NCBI RefSeq assembly: GCF_002090155.1
Contig: NZ_BBRM01000002.1
Coordinates: 62,001-126,000, forward strand
Length of the DNA stretch: 64,000 bases
Source: Demequina sp. NBRC 110056
GTDB taxonomy: Bacteria > Actinomycetota > Actinomycetes > Actinomycetales > Demequinaceae
Direction: 5' to 3'
Positions 9,048-17,332 of the stretch are shown here, one piece after another. The position numbers and the translations under genes were made by a program. Below the pieces are notes generated by a model. That model did no database searches and was not told where the DNA came from. It worked only from the letters and a program-made list of their open reading frames with translations. Each line of letters begins with the position of its first letter. Positions within the stretch are counted from its first letter, which is position 1.

Positions 9048-10142
9048 TCAGGGTCGGTAGGCGACGAGTCCTTGCGGCACGGTGAAGCGCACGGCGTCGC
9101 CGACGCCGACCGCGAGATCCGCGACGGCGACGTCCGCCGCGAGGAGGCGCCCGCGCACGCGGACGACGTCGCCGCGTGGCTCGAGCGCCGCCACGACGTC
9201 GTGCACCACGCCATCGCCCGCCTTGCCGGTGTCGACCGCTCTGCCAGCCGGCGCCCGGGAGGTGAGCGCCGTGGGCTCGGAGGAGTCCGGTGTGCGCGCG
9301 GTCATGCCCACCGCAGCCGGCGCCACGGCGACCACGGCTTCGGAGCCGTCCGGTACGCCGGAGGAGTCGGCAGGCACGCGCAGGCCGTCGGCGGTGACGA
9401 GAGCGCCGGGTGCCGCGCGCCCGGCCACGAGCACCCTCCCGGCCACGGCGGCGGCGAAGCGCGTGCGCGGGCGGGTGAGCACCTCCGCCGTCACACCTTG
9501 CTCCACGACTCGGCCTGTCTCGAGGACAGCGACCTCGGAGGCGAGCAGGTGCGCGTCGAGCGCGTCGTGGGTCGTGATCACGGTGGTGACGTCCGCGGCA
9601 GCCTCGGCGACGAGCAGGCGCAGCGCGGTCGCAGCCTCGACGTCGACGCCCGCGAAGGGCTCGTCGAGCAACAGCACCCGTGGCTGGCTGGCAAGGGCAC
9701 GCACGATCGCGACGCGCCGCGCCTGACCTCCCGAGAGATCGCGCGGCAGCCGCTCCGCGAGGTCACCGAGCCCCGCCCTCGCGAGCCAGTGCTGGGACTC
9801 GTCCCGCGCATCGGCCCTGCGCACGCCACGTGCGCGCACGCCGAAGGCCACGTTGTCGAGCACCGTGAGCGCGGGGAACAGGTCGTGGCCCTGCGTCACG
9901 AGCGCGATGCCGCGCCGACGTGGCGGCGTCCACGCGGTGCGCCGCGCGTCGAGGTCGTGGAGCGGGAGACCGTCCAGCGCGACGCGGCCCGCGTCGGGCC
10001 GCACCGTGCCCGCGATCGCCGCGAGCACCGTGGACTTCCCGGACCCATTCGGCCCCAGGAGCGCGAGCGTCGAGCCGGCGTCGATCGCGAGGCGCGCGTC
10101 CACGCCGCGCGACGCCACCGTGACCTGCGCCTCGAGGCTCAT
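9048..10142 (-). CDS. modC: Molybdate ABC transporter ATP-binding protein ModC
   Basis: 364 aa. Powers molybdate import through ModB. Walker A GPNGSGKST, Q-loop VTQGHD, signature LSGGQARRVAIVRAL, Walker B VLLLDEPFAGVD and H-loop TTHD are all present in the first ~215 residues. The C-terminal ~70 residues form a Mop/TOBE-like oxyanion-binding domain (VVAALEPRGDVVRVRGRLL). A proline/serine-rich linker (~240-295) joins them. ATG overlaps the modB stop. Confidence 0.95.
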   Translation of the reverse strand: MSLEAQVTVASRGVDARLAIDAGSTLALLGPNGSGKSTVLAAIAGTVRPDAGRVALDGLPLHDLDARRTAWTPPRRRGIALVTQGHDLFPALTVLDNVAFGVRARGVRRADARDESQHWLARAGLGDLAERLPRDLSGGQARRVAIVRALASQPRVLLLDEPFAGVDVEAATALRLLVAEAAADVTTVITTHDALDAHLLASEVAVLETGRVVEQGVTAEVLTRPRTRFAAAVAGRVLVAGRAAPGALVTADGLRVPADSSGVPDGSEAVVAVAPAAVGMTARTPDSSEPTALTSRAPAGRAVDTGKAGDGVVHDVVAALEPRGDVVRVRGRLLAADVAVADLAVGVGDAVRFTVPQGLVAYRP

Positions 10143-10936
10143 CGGCCCGCTCCGGCAGGCGTCCGTGCGGACAGCGGCCGGTACGCGAGCGCGACCACCG
10201 TCACCGCGACCGCGACGAGCAGGACCGCGAGCGCCACCGCGGCATCCGCGTCGGTCTCGCGCTGCAGGTAGATCTCGAGCGGCAGCGTGCGGGTCACGCC
10301 GGGCATGGAGCCCGCGAACGTCAGCGTCGCGCCGAACTCGCCGAGCGCCCGTGCGAACGCCAGCACGGTGCCGGTGATGAGGGCCGGTCGCAGCGCCGGG
10401 AGAGTGACGTGCCACAGAGTCGTCGATCGCGACGCGCCCAGCGTCCCGGCGAGCGCCTCGTGGTGGCCGGCTTGGGCGCCGAGCGCCGACTCCGTCGCGA
10501 GCACCATGAACGGCATCGCGACGAACGTCTGCGCGACCACCACCGCGGCGGTGGTGAAGGCGAGGGACAGGCCGGCGTCCTCGAGCGCACCTCCCAGCAG
10601 ACCTCGGCGCCCGAACGCGTAGAGCAGCGCGAGGCCGCCGACCACGGGCGGCAGCACGAGGGGAGCGAGCACGAGCGCCCGCACGGCGGGCTTGAACCGT
10701 GATCGCCACGTCGCGAGCGCGTACCCGAGCGGAAGTCCCAGCATCAGGCACAGGCACGTGGAGATGGCCGCGGTGGCGAGGCTCAGGCCCAGGGCGTCGA
10801 GCGCCGCGGGAGCGGTGAGCAGCTCGGGCAGCCGCGACCAGTCGAGGCGCGCCACCGTCGCGACGATGGGCAGCAGCACCACGGTCGCGGCGAGCACCGC
10901 GAGGGGCGCCATCCAGCGCGGCATGGTCCCGGTCAC
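10139..10936 (-). CDS. modB: Molybdate ABC transporter permease ModB
   Basis: About 265 aa with five or six hydrophobic segments and the EAA loop EALAGTLGASRSTTLWHVTLP-like stretch that contacts ModC. Forms the inner-membrane channel for molybdate. The start is taken as GTG 10936, which overlaps the modA stop as GTGA; ATG 10924 four codons on is the alternative. Its stop overlaps modC as ATGA, so modA-modB-modC are translationally coupled. Confidence 0.94.
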   Translation of the reverse strand: MTGTMPRWMAPLAVLAATVVLLPIVATVARLDWSRLPELLTAPAALDALGLSLATAAISTCLCLMLGLPLGYALATWRSRFKPAVRALVLAPLVLPPVVGGLALLYAFGRRGLLGGALEDAGLSLAFTTAAVVVAQTFVAMPFMVLATESALGAQAGHHEALAGTLGASRSTTLWHVTLPALRPALITGTVLAFARALGEFGATLTFAGSMPGVTRTLPLEIYLQRETDADAAVALAVLLVAVAVTVVALAYRPLSARTPAGAGR

Positions 10937-11754
10937 GGCGATCCGAATCCGGCCTCGGCGAGGACGCGCTGGCCCGCGTCGCCGAGCACCAGGTCGACGA
11001 AGGAGGCGGCGAGGTCGAGGCTCTCGCCGCCGGACATGGGCGCGATCGGGTAGCTGTTCACCACTGCCGCCGCGCCGTCGATCTCCACCTGCTCGACGCC
11101 GCTCGCCCGGGCGACGTCGGTGACGTAGACGACTCCCGCATCGGCCTGGCCGGCCGCGACCTTGCCGAGCACGTCGGTGACCGAGCTCTCCTGCGAGGAC
11201 GGGGCGAGCGTGGCTCCCTCGGCGGCGGCGAGCTCGAGGGTGGCCGCGCCGCAGGGCACCTGCGGGGCGCACACGACGGACACGACGTCCTCCCGCGCCA
11301 GGTCGTCGAGTCCCGCGAGCCGCAGGGGGTTGCCGTCCTCGACCACGAGCGTGAGGGTGTTGGTCGCGAAGATCGTCGGCGGCGCGGCGGTGAGCTCCTG
11401 GACCGCCTCCATCTGTGCCTCGTTCGCGGACGCGAACACGTCCGCCGGGGCGCCCTCGACGATGGTGGCCGCGAGCTCCGCCGAGCCGCCGTGGACCACC
11501 ACCACGTCGACGTGCGGGTGCTCGGCCTCGTAGGCCTCCTCGAGCTGCGCGAACACGTCCGTGAGCGACGCCGCCGCGTAGACGGTCAGGACCCGGTCGT
11601 CTCCCGCGCTCGCCGTCGAGCATCCGGCGAGGACCAGCGTCATCGCGGCGACCGCCGCCGCGCCAGCCGTCGCGCGACGGGACGAGGTCGCGCGCGCTGG
11701 ACGAGGGGGTGGCGTGTGCGGGCTCCTCCTGAGCAGGGCCGATGCGCTCGTCAC
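10933..11754 (-). CDS. modA: Molybdate-binding lipoprotein ModA
   Basis: 273 aa periplasmic-type binding protein tethered by lipid. It has an arginine-rich N-terminus, a hydrophobic stretch and a lipobox LAGC at ~43-46. The mature part begins TVYAAASLTDVF, with GGSAELAATIVEGAPADVFAS and SNxYPIAP-like blocks typical of molybdate/tungstate-binding proteins. GTG start overlaps the upstream regulator stop (GTGA). Captures molybdate for ModBC. Confidence 0.94.
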   Translation of the reverse strand: MTSASALLRRSPHTPPPRPARATSSRRATAGAAAVAAMTLVLAGCSTASAGDDRVLTVYAAASLTDVFAQLEEAYEAEHPHVDVVVVHGGSAELAATIVEGAPADVFASANEAQMEAVQELTAAPPTIFATNTLTLVVEDGNPLRLAGLDDLAREDVVSVVCAPQVPCGAATLELAAAEGATLAPSSQESSVTDVLGKVAAGQADAGVVYVTDVARASGVEQVEIDGAAAVVNSYPIAPMSGGESLDLAASFVDLVLGDAGQRVLAEAGFGSP

Positions 11755-12152
11755 GAGCGCTCAGCGCGCTCGACGATGACGGTCGTGGCCTTCACGACGG
11801 CGGTGGCGACGGAGCCTGGCACGAGTCCGAGCTCACGCACCGCCTCGGTGCTCATGAGGGAGACCACGCGGTGCGGTCCGCACTGCAGCTCGACCTGGCT
11901 CATCACGGCGTCCGAGGTGACGGCCGTGACGATGCCGACGAACTGGTTGCGAGCGGACCGGGCCACGCCGGACGCGTCCGTCGCGACGCGGGCGCGCTCG
12001 CGCGCCAGGCGTGCGACGTCCTCGCCGTCGATCAGCGTCCGGCCCGCCGAGTCGACCGCCGTGACGAGGCCTTCCGCGTCGACCCAGCGGCGGACCGTGT
12101 CGTCGGAGACGCCGGTCAGGACGGCGGCCTCGGAGATTCGCAGATGCGGCAT
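11751..12152 (-). CDS. MerR-like helix-turn-helix regulator with TOBE (molybdate-binding) domain
   Basis: 133 aa. Residues 1-60 are an excisionase/MerR-type DNA-binding domain (RISEAAVLTGVSDDTVRRWVDAEGL). Residues ~65-130 are a Mop/TOBE fold that binds molybdate in ModE and in Mop proteins. First gene of the mod operon, so a molybdate-sensing repressor of modABC is the natural inference. ATG 12152 is preferred over GTG 12161: a -10-like TACAGT (12160-12165) lies exactly 7 nt upstream, predicting a leaderless mRNA. A palindromic operator covers that -10. Confidence 0.85.
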   Translation of the reverse strand: MPHLRISEAAVLTGVSDDTVRRWVDAEGLVTAVDSAGRTLIDGEDVARLARERARVATDASGVARSARNQFVGIVTAVTSDAVMSQVELQCGPHRVVSLMSTEAVRELGLVPGSVATAVVKATTVIVERAERS

Positions 12153-12179
12153 GAAGGCCACTGTAGTGGCGCATCTGCG
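12139..12179. promoter_or_regulatory. Nested palindromic operator at the mod operon promoter
   Basis: Two nested inverted repeats surround the modE-like start. The inner arms GCCACT/AGTGGC (12157-12162, 12165-12170) are separated by 2 bp and overlap the -10 TACAGT. The outer arms CGCAGATGCG/CGCATCTGCG (12139-12148, 12170-12179) are perfect 10-mers; one falls inside the first codons of the regulator. The position suits autorepression by the adjacent HTH-TOBE protein (inference). Confidence 0.6.
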
Positions 12180-12246
12180 TCAGAACGAGGGCTTCGTCCA
12201 GCAAACTCTCCGCCGCCGCGCAGCCATGCAGGTCCGCCCGATCAGT

Positions 12247-12873
12247 TCACGGCCGCACCCGCGCCCGTCGTGCGAAGGGCGCGACGCAGGCCACGCTGAG
12301 CGTCGCCATGAGCCCCACCACGAGGACGACGAGCCACGCCCCGTCGGGCGTGGTGACGGGCATCTCGGCGATGAGGGCGGGCGTCGCGGCGAAGCCGGCG
12401 AGCGCGAGCGCCCACAGCGCGCCGACGAGCAGCCTCACCCACCGCCGACCGCGAGAGCCCAGGGCGTAGCCGCCGGCGAGGCCCACGAGCACCACCCCGA
12501 TCGCGCCCCCGCCGAGCCCCTGCGTGAGGAGGTCGGCGAGCGCTCCTGGCTCGAGCATCGGCGCGACGGCGAGGACGGCGGGTGCCAGCGCGAACCACGC
12601 GCTGGGCCTGCCGAGTGTCGCCCTCGACCACGCCCAGCCCAGCAGCCCGCCGGCGACCGCGCCGGGAAGGAGGATCGCTCCGAACGTGCCCCACCAGGTG
12701 AAGGTGGACACCGGGCCCGCGAGCTCGATCATGTACGCCCGCAGGGCGGCCGCCCACGTGACGCCGGTCACGGTTCCGACCGCCACCAGCAGTCCAGCGC
12801 GCGGCGCCCGAGCGACGGTCCGCGTCGCGTCGGGTGCGGGGAGCGGCCCTGGCGTGGGCACTCCGACCTCCAT
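12247..12873 (-). CDS. Integral membrane protein of unknown function
   Basis: 208 aa, with about six hydrophobic segments after a short proline/arginine-rich N-terminus. I do not recognise a family. It sits between moaA and the mod operon on the same strand, 38 nt downstream of the moaA stop... in genome order, that is, upstream of moaA in position but transcribed after it. A role in molybdate metabolism is possible only by proximity. Start ATG 12873; the stop is 94 nt before the mod regulator start. Confidence 0.75.
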   Translation of the reverse strand: MEVGVPTPGPLPAPDATRTVARAPRAGLLVAVGTVTGVTWAAALRAYMIELAGPVSTFTWWGTFGAILLPGAVAGGLLGWAWSRATLGRPSAWFALAPAVLAVAPMLEPGALADLLTQGLGGGAIGVVLVGLAGGYALGSRGRRWVRLLVGALWALALAGFAATPALIAEMPVTTPDGAWLVVLVVGLMATLSVACVAPFARRARVRP

Positions 12874-15691: not shown

Positions 15692-17332
15692 ATGGCATCG
15701 ACGGATGATCCGACCCCCTGGACCGGCTACACGCCTGTCGCCGCGTGGGACGAGGCGATGGATGTCGAGGGAAGCGTGCGCGATCCCTACGCCCGGGTGT
15801 ACGCGGAGATCGAGCGCATGTCGGGCGACGACCTGTACTCCCGTGCCGAGGCGCTCGCGAACACGTACCTTGCGCAGGGCGTGACGTTCGACCACGCCGG
15901 CGAGGAGCGGCCGTTCCCGCTCGACATCGTGCCGCGGGTCATCGGATCGGACGAGTGGGAGATCATCTCGCCCGGAGTCTCGCAGCGCGTCAAGGCTCTT
16001 GAGGCCTTCCTCGCGGACGTCTACGGCTCGCAGCACTGCGTGCAGGACGGCATCGTGCCGCGCCGGCTCATCGCGACGTCGCAGTACTTCTACCGCTCGG
16101 TCGCCGGCGTCGAGCCCGCGAACGGCGTGCGCGTGCACGTGTCCGGCATCGACCTGGTGCGCGACCAGCACGGCATCTGGCGGGTGCTCGAGGACAACGT
16201 CCGCGTGCCCTCCGGCGTCAGCTACGTGCTGTCGAACCGGCGGGCGATGTCGCAGATGTTCCCGGAGATGTTCGGCGCCATGGGCATCCGCCCGGTGCTC
16301 GAGTACTCCCGCCGCCTGCGCGCCTCGCTCGCCAAGTGCGCGCCCGAGGGCGTCGACGACCCGACCATCGTCGTGCTCACCCCCGGCGTCTACAACTCGG
16401 CGTACTACGAGCACTCGCTGCTCGCGCGCACCATGGGCGTCGAGCTCGTGGAAGGCCGCGACCTCGAGACCGTCAACGGCCGCGTCTACATGCGCACCAC
16501 CGCCGGCCGCCGCCGCGTGGACGTCATCTACCGGCGCGTCGACGACGACTACCTCGACCCCGTGGTGTTCCGCCCCGACAGCTCGCTCGGCGCACCTGGA
16601 CTCGTCAACGCGGCCCGCCTGGGCAACGTCACCATCGCCAACGCGATCGGCAACGGCGTCGCGGACGACAAGCTCATGTACACGTACATGCCCGACCTCA
16701 TCCGTTACTACCTCAACGAGGAGCCGATCCTTCCGAACGTCGACACCTGGCGACTGGAGGAGGCCGATGCGCGCGAGGAGGTGCTCGACCGGCTCGACGA
16801 GCTCGTCGTCAAGCCCGTCGACGGCGCAGGCGGCAAGGGCGTCACCATCGGCCCCAAGGCCTCGCGCGAGGAGCTCGACAAGGTCAAGGCGCAGATCACG
16901 GCGGACCCGCGCGGGTGGATCGCGCAGCCCGTGATCCAGCTGTCGACCGTGCCGACGCTCACGGACGACGGACTCGAGCCTCGCCACGTCGACCTGCGCC
17001 CCTTCGCGATCAACGACGGCGACGACGTGTGGGTGCTGCCCGGCGGCCTCACGCGCGTCGCGCTGCAGCGCGGCCAGCTCATCGTCAACTCGTCGCAGGG
17101 CGGCGGGTCGAAGGACACGTGGGTGCTCGGCGGCGTGCGCCACCGGGCGTCCACGCAGCCTCCGCCCGAGGCGCGTGTGGAGTTCGGCGGGATCGGTTCG
17201 GTGCCGCAGACGGCGCACCCCGAGGACTACGTCGCGGGCCAGCAGCAACAGCAGCAACAGCAGCAGCGCGAGCAGCCAAGCGCGGAACCCGCGACCCATC
17301 CCGACGGCCCGGCCGAGGAGGCGTCATGCTGA
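15692..17332 (+). CDS. Circularly permuted ATP-grasp type 2 protein (DUF404/DUF407)
   Basis: 546 aa. Members of this family are predicted peptide-ligase-like enzymes encoded with alpha-E and transglutaminase partners, exactly as here; the product is unknown. Seen: VSGIDLVRDQHGIWRVLEDN, NNxRVPSGVSYV-like block, TPGVYNSAYYEHSLLAR, VKPVDGAGGKGVTIGP (ATP-binding) and HVDLRPFAIN. A run of nine glutamines encoded by CAG/CAA (17240-17266) lies in the disordered tail. TAACGT (15680-15685) sits 6 nt before the ATG: a likely leaderless start. Confidence 0.92.
   Translation: MASTDDPTPWTGYTPVAAWDEAMDVEGSVRDPYARVYAEIERMSGDDLYSRAEALANTYLAQGVTFDHAGEERPFPLDIVPRVIGSDEWEIISPGVSQRVKALEAFLADVYGSQHCVQDGIVPRRLIATSQYFYRSVAGVEPANGVRVHVSGIDLVRDQHGIWRVLEDNVRVPSGVSYVLSNRRAMSQMFPEMFGAMGIRPVLEYSRRLRASLAKCAPEGVDDPTIVVLTPGVYNSAYYEHSLLARTMGVELVEGRDLETVNGRVYMRTTAGRRRVDVIYRRVDDDYLDPVVFRPDSSLGAPGLVNAARLGNVTIANAIGNGVADDKLMYTYMPDLIRYYLNEEPILPNVDTWRLEEADAREEVLDRLDELVVKPVDGAGGKGVTIGPKASREELDKVKAQITADPRGWIAQPVIQLSTVPTLTDDGLEPRHVDLRPFAINDGDDVWVLPGGLTRVALQRGQLIVNSSQGGGSKDTWVLGGVRHRASTQPPPEARVEFGGIGSVPQTAHPEDYVAGQQQQQQQQQREQPSAEPATHPDGPAEEASC

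Follow-up and report, generated by a model that had tools for sequence, protein, structure and literature searches.

The two palindromic boxes at the start of the molybdate uptake genes of Demequina sp. NBRC 110056 are best read as the operator of ModR, a molybdate-responsive autoregulator heading the modABC genes, an assignment that we hold at a probability of roughly 0.78. A small molybdate-sensing protein, widespread among actinobacteria, probably switches off the uptake genes through these nearly identical twin palindromes, which lie about three helix turns apart.

The mod locus and its twin palindromes

The window, i.e., the whole stretch of 64,000 nucleotides analyzed here, is part of a Demequina genome of 2.94 Mb in 10 contigs (G000). 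Its mod genes lie on the minus strand. The gene modR (11751..12152) encodes a protein of 133 aa with an HTH_17/MerR_1 winged HTH (residues 4-53), a linker and a single TOBE domain (66-127), and this protein is closest to those of other Demequina species (83% identity to that of Demequina sp. NBRC 110053). It is followed by modA (10933..11754), encoding a molybdate-binding protein (TIGR01256 over cut-off), whose GTG start overlaps the modR stop, by the permease gene modB (10139..10879; PF00528), whose start is uncertain, and by the ATPase gene modC (9048..10142; PF00005). A domain search recognized no TOBE domain in the modC product. The single TOBE match of the whole genome falls in ModR, which may thus be the only molybdate sensor of this type. 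Genes for moeA, moaC, a mobA-like product, DUF6457 and a moaD-like product are carried by the plus strand and converge on the mod genes, and moaA, moaE and a mog-like gene are found on the opposite side. Two further features of the region were recorded: a predicted protein between moaA and modR (12247-12870, minus strand) with no Pfam or NCBIfam match, and a run of nine glutamines at about 17200-17270 (plus strand), near the end of a large ORF (15692-17332).

Around the modR start, perfect 10-bp inverted arms are present, CGCAGATGCG at 12139-12148 and CGCATCTGCG at 12170-12179. When the window was shuffled 100 times with its dinucleotides preserved, this arm pair never turned up, and a genome-wide search for the relaxed form CGYANNTRCG-N20-22-CGYANNTRCG gave a single occurrence in the 2.94 Mb. 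Each arm is also palindromic in itself (CGCA-NN-TGCG, as CGCA-GA-TGCG and CGCA-TC-TGCG); the outer repeat is therefore better described as two operator boxes than as two half-sites of one. Operator box 1 (ACGCAGATGCGC; 12169..12180, minus strand; core 12170-12179) is located in the predicted -35/-10 spacer and differs from the 12-mer CCGYANNTRCGG at two positions, none of them in the 10-bp core. Operator box 2 (CCGCATCTGCGA; 12138..12149, minus strand; core 12139-12148) covers modR codons 2-5. The centers of the two boxes are 31 bp apart, so that two CCGYANNTRCGG palindromes would be presented on roughly one side of the double helix.

The promoter was read from position and conservation, as an automatic scan of 12060-12300 returned no sigma-70 promoter. 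The putative -10 element TACAGT (12160..12165, minus strand), which is conserved in relatives, ends 7 nt before the modR ATG (12150..12152, minus strand), a fixed distance that makes a leaderless start at this ATG plausible. Over 81 loci (the window and 80 relatives), the -10 columns hold T at -13 in 62, A at -12 in 70 and T at -8 in 64, and C stands at -1 in 64/81. The -35 hexamer was placed by position only (TCGTTC, 12183..12188, minus strand; a poor match). Box 1 falls within the resulting 17-bp spacer, whose length likewise follows from position only, and box 2 would span +4 to +15 of a leaderless transcript. The column profile over the 81 loci gives the same order: box 1, TAnnnT at -13 to -8, the start codon and, across codons 2-5, box 2. 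A plausible layout is thus a leaderless promoter with one box in its spacer and the other just past the start.

Conservation of the pair and of its spacing

Part of the search that yielded the 80 relatives used the peptide pattern MPHLRISE, and relatedness among loci inflates all conservation counts given here. With at most one mismatch, CCGYANNTRCGG starts at -28 from the ATG in 49/81 loci and at +3 in 44/81, each against 0.02 expected per position. Both boxes are present in 67/81 loci, with a spacing of 31 bp in 60, 32 bp in 5 and 30 bp in 2. A motif-free scan for similar palindromes also ranked lag 31 first (40/81 loci; next lag, 3). The coding box is lost (at least four mismatches) in seven of the 81 loci, namely five Sinomonas, a Microbacteriaceae MAG and Microbacterium barkeri, and in each of these seven a further box precedes box 1, by 31 bp in six cases and by 32 bp in the remaining one. 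Among the remaining 74 loci, 14 likewise have an upstream box (at a distance of 31-32 bp in 8), and several loci carry three boxes (e.g., L019 and L034). Judged from these alignments, the spacing is the feature that is kept.

Because fetching by MPHLRISE favors box 2, a second set was collected by protein search alone. Searching 149 genomes of the order, our own included, gave 97 loci with a full-length regulator (L081 is the window), TOBE-only partial matches having been left out. A pair (at most 3/16 mismatches, 30-32 bp) lies upstream in 86/97 loci, compared with a mean of 2.1 and a maximum of 7 in shuffled upstream regions, and the spacing is exactly 31 bp in 69 of the 97. Box 2 is within the codons in 39 loci, both boxes are upstream in 37, and the pair is elsewhere in 10; when both are upstream, box 1 still lies about in the spacer. 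Eight of the 11 loci without an upstream pair belong to one genus (g242), the other three being L271, L281 and L110. In a post hoc look at a longer stretch, confined to this single genus, 7 of the 8 (L293-L299) showed a pair with 0-3 mismatches between modR and modA, spaced 31 bp in six and 32 bp in one; the eighth is L290. In five of these seven loci, modR follows a moaE-like end, as read by eye from the upstream sequences.

These positions also bear on an RNA hairpin or riboswitch of the mod leader, an explanation that the perfect complementarity of the two boxes over 10 bp could suggest and that would have precedent in the Moco riboswitches reported in actinobacteria (PMC2408646). Yet, given the conserved -10 and a C/A start at the ATG, box 1 would lie upstream of the transcript, and both boxes are upstream of the start in about as many loci as have one in the codons. 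Moreover, the box centers (NN) vary, each box is palindromic alone, and no Rfam match was found in 11500-12800. An RNA element is hardly credible on these grounds.

The outer boxes differ in their conservation from the 6-bp arms GCCACT/AGTGGC of the window (12157-12162 and 12165-12170), which the earlier note had taken as the inner part of a nested operator whose arms should be conserved wherever relatives keep the regulator. The outer arms stood up to this comparison, being found as paired elements in 86/97 loci; the nesting did not. The outer and inner repeats are not concentric (centers 12159 and 12163.5), and in the 80 relatives the inner arms pair at chance level, with a mean of 1.83/6 complementary positions against 1.80 expected from column composition and a maximum of 4/6; 6/6 is reached solely in the window. 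The nested-dyad design was rejected in favor of two separate palindromes 31 bp apart, and by this alignment the inner arms (12157..12170) are a chance feature outside the operator.

Since box 2 overlaps codons 2-5, we compared codon choice at these positions with that of the gene body. Ile codon 4 is ATA in 17/29 loci, against 0.5% of gene-body Ile codons; His codon 3 is CAT in 19/36 (15% in the gene body), Phe codon 4 is TTT in 6/10 (2.5%) and Pro codon 2 is CCG in 58/62 (51%). Synonymous resampling, in which the protein was kept and codons were drawn by gene-body usage (1000 draws), gave a mean mismatch to box 2 of 2.80 (sd 0.09), compared with 1.72 observed. At most one mismatch was observed in 44 loci, against a mean of 10.3 and a maximum of 21 among the draws; p-values from this test are too small, because related loci are non-independent. 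As read from codon usage, selection acts on the DNA of box 2 beyond the protein. That box 2 is just a conserved protein start (MPHLRI) and its likeness to box 1 a coding coincidence is hence very hard to maintain: the peptide is indeed conserved, and its pattern helped to fetch the 80 relatives, but rare codons appear at the positions that the palindrome requires, a fit as good as the observed one was not obtained in any of the resampling draws, and the pair stands in non-coding DNA in 37 of the 97 loci of the set collected independently of the pattern, as well as before a solitary modA (L207).

The latter case emerged when the 149 genomes were scanned blindly for the pair in its exact 31-bp form, which occurs at 30 places in 29 genomes, compared with 7 places for a reversed-pattern control. 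The modR gene is adjacent to 24 of these 30 places, among them our own locus and L176, where the pair separates modR from modA. One exact pair is found just before a solitary modA (L200/L207; L207 3145-4021), in a genome (G528) that has modR on another contig. This arrangement is the best single sign, at the level of gene order, that the pair may serve as an operator in trans rather than arising from the modR start. Five exact pairs (L174, L175, L186, L193 and L206) have no modR, modA or modB match beside them, a number not far from the control's 7; L206 matches just the ModC ATPase, and weakly. In L193 (1501-1541), a perfect pair precedes an ORF that on visual inspection resembles TetR, with modR elsewhere in that genome (G506).

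Another transcription factor could bind the pair and control the mod genes, ModR being an operon member or a molybdate buffer. Single CCGYANNTRCGG boxes are not enriched in the Demequina genome (26 sites, against 115 for the reversed control), so a regulon is not readable from them. This lack of enrichment would agree with such a factor, as would the exact pair of L193, which lies between genes without modR, modA or modB matches. We consider it unlikely, however, since 28 of the 29 exact-pair genomes carry modR (G479 being the one without it), 24 of the 30 places adjoin it, and ModR has a winged HTH of its own.

Downstream of modR, modA was found in 75/80 relatives. In two Actinokineospora loci (L012 and L041), box 1 is kept with 1 and 0 mismatches, respectively, and no modA, modB or modC match follows. 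In Clavibacter and Rathayibacter (L040, L060 and L068), the regulator gene was seen directly before modB, without modA. A search across the phylum matched 199/396 genomes, and distant loci were drawn from part of these only (29 loci and 60 stretches); L135 (too little upstream sequence) and the window duplicates L081-L083 were left out of the palindrome-lag set. Among 88 loci from farther off in the phylum, lag 31 still ranks first, if weakly (8/88; next lag, 4). The same boxes are present in L087, L096, L127 and L136, and many distant loci lack the pair. In L149, L161, L164 and L168, a different palindrome, near ACCTAGGT, is paired at 30-32 bp before the regulator, which hints at a changed recognition sequence with a kept spacing.

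The ModR protein and a proposed mechanism

Residues 4-53 of ModR match HTH_17 and MerR_1 (the latter above cut-off), with PF00376 (MerR) below cut-off, and residues 66-127 form one TOBE stretch (PF03459, E 5e-13, above cut-off). The AlphaFold2 monomer model (mean pLDDT 86) shows a winged HTH to residue 53, a poorly predicted or disordered linker and a TOBE barrel from about residue 69; the coiled-coil dimerization helix of classical MerR is absent from this model. With Foldseek, the TOBE part retrieved ModE, ModG, Tub and MopII (best match 1o7l), and the HTH part retrieved RacA, BldC and MtaN. The type-2 oxyanion sites of Tub are formed by Ser4, Arg6, Ser40, Lys60 and Ala61 (PMC11980592), and these residues align to ModR S66, R68, S101, K121 and A122. 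Over 95 sequences, S66, R68 and K121 are found in all 95, position 101 is S in 51 and T in 44, and position 122 is A in 72 and S in 23. The conserved oxyanion-site residues make molybdate sensing by ModR likely; tungstate might also be the ligand.

The earlier note had proposed that an operator spans the leaderless promoter and first codons of the mod operon and that its repressor is a MerR-like HTH-TOBE protein rather than classical ModE. The boxes, the column profile and the domain matches speak for such an operator and for an HTH-TOBE protein of this kind at the head of the operon. TIGR00637 (ModE_repress) is not among the NCBIfam matches of ModR at E <= 0.001, and the genome has no ModE above the family cut-off, its sole TIGR00637 match being another locus below cut-off. 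ModR shares the conserved molybdate-site residues of ModE, and in place of the tandem TOBE (di-Mop) of ModE it has one TOBE. Nor do its boxes follow the head-to-tail direct repeats of about 9 bp typical of BldC, being palindromes at 31 bp. From its predicted domains, ModR is a MerR/BldC/RacA-like winged HTH with one TOBE, a protein that appears to work like ModE and yet falls outside the ModE family.

A MerR-like HTH, together with a palindrome inside the -35/-10 spacer, which is the classical MerR position, might instead indicate activation, with ModR bound at box 1 and bending the promoter under molybdate scarcity. MerR promoter spacers are 19-20 bp, and the putative spacer here is 17 bp; the ModR model lacks the coiled-coil helix, and a protein bound at box 2, past the start, would stand in the way of the polymerase. 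Activation of the MerR type is therefore very unlikely.

Returning to ModR as a repressor, we infer from these data that it is the binder of the pair, that it represses rather than activates, that molybdate is the co-repressor and that it acts as an oligomer. Its TOBE domains would bind molybdate at subunit interfaces, and the molybdate-loaded oligomer would place a winged-HTH pair on each palindrome. Occupancy of both boxes would exclude RNA polymerase, keeping uptake off when molybdate is plentiful, and apo-ModR would release the boxes when it is scarce. ModR would in this way control its own dose together with that of the transporter. More tentatively, and with the odds somewhat against it, ModR could form through its TOBE domains a Mop/Tub-like hexamer, a trimer of dimers with three winged-HTH pairs, bridging two operators three helical turns apart. 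A hexamer footprint would explain why the partner box can lie downstream in the codons, upstream, or on both sides (three boxes) with the distance held. If so, the 31-bp spacing would be the footprint of the hexamer, and a fold known from metal storage would have been recruited as a repressor that bridges DNA.

Relation to known systems

In the full-text literature searched, mostly outside subscription journals, we found no description of an HTH-TOBE regulator before modABC or of its operator; an earlier description of either is possible. The TOBE sensor, the MerR-like HTH and the logic of a mod repressor are each known, and it is their combination with a twin-palindrome operator that was not found in that literature. 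The regulator precedes modABC in a large share of the actinobacteria that were examined, and an operator defined by sequence, spacing and position would allow molybdate control to be predicted in these genomes. It also offers a case of an operator within the first codons that would force rare codons, and the fixed 31-bp spacing gives a handle on how a TOBE oligomer could read DNA.

Among the known systems, the TaoR-like regulators of gut bacteria resemble ModR in joining HTH_17 with TOBE. They differ by an extra PBP-like domain, and the ModE-like gut kind has another HTH; the available portion of PMC11980592, from which these traits are taken, describes no operator for either kind. BldC and RacA, which have a MerR-like winged HTH without the MerR dimer helix, are the nearest HTH folds and sequences to ModR. 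Unlike ModR, they have no TOBE, and BldC binds direct repeats head to tail (PMC5859096), whereas the ModR boxes are palindromic. Mop, ModG and Tub share with ModR the TOBE domain and the type-2 oxyanion-site residues, but they are storage or binding proteins without an HTH. ModE, the modABC repressor of E. coli, differs from ModR, which has an HTH of the HTH_17/MerR_1 type, one TOBE rather than two, and an operator of two 12-bp palindromes 31 bp apart; the ModE operator is one dyad of another sequence. Both proteins nevertheless combine a TOBE molybdate sensor with a winged HTH and are associated with modABC, and it is the logic of ModE that we propose for ModR.
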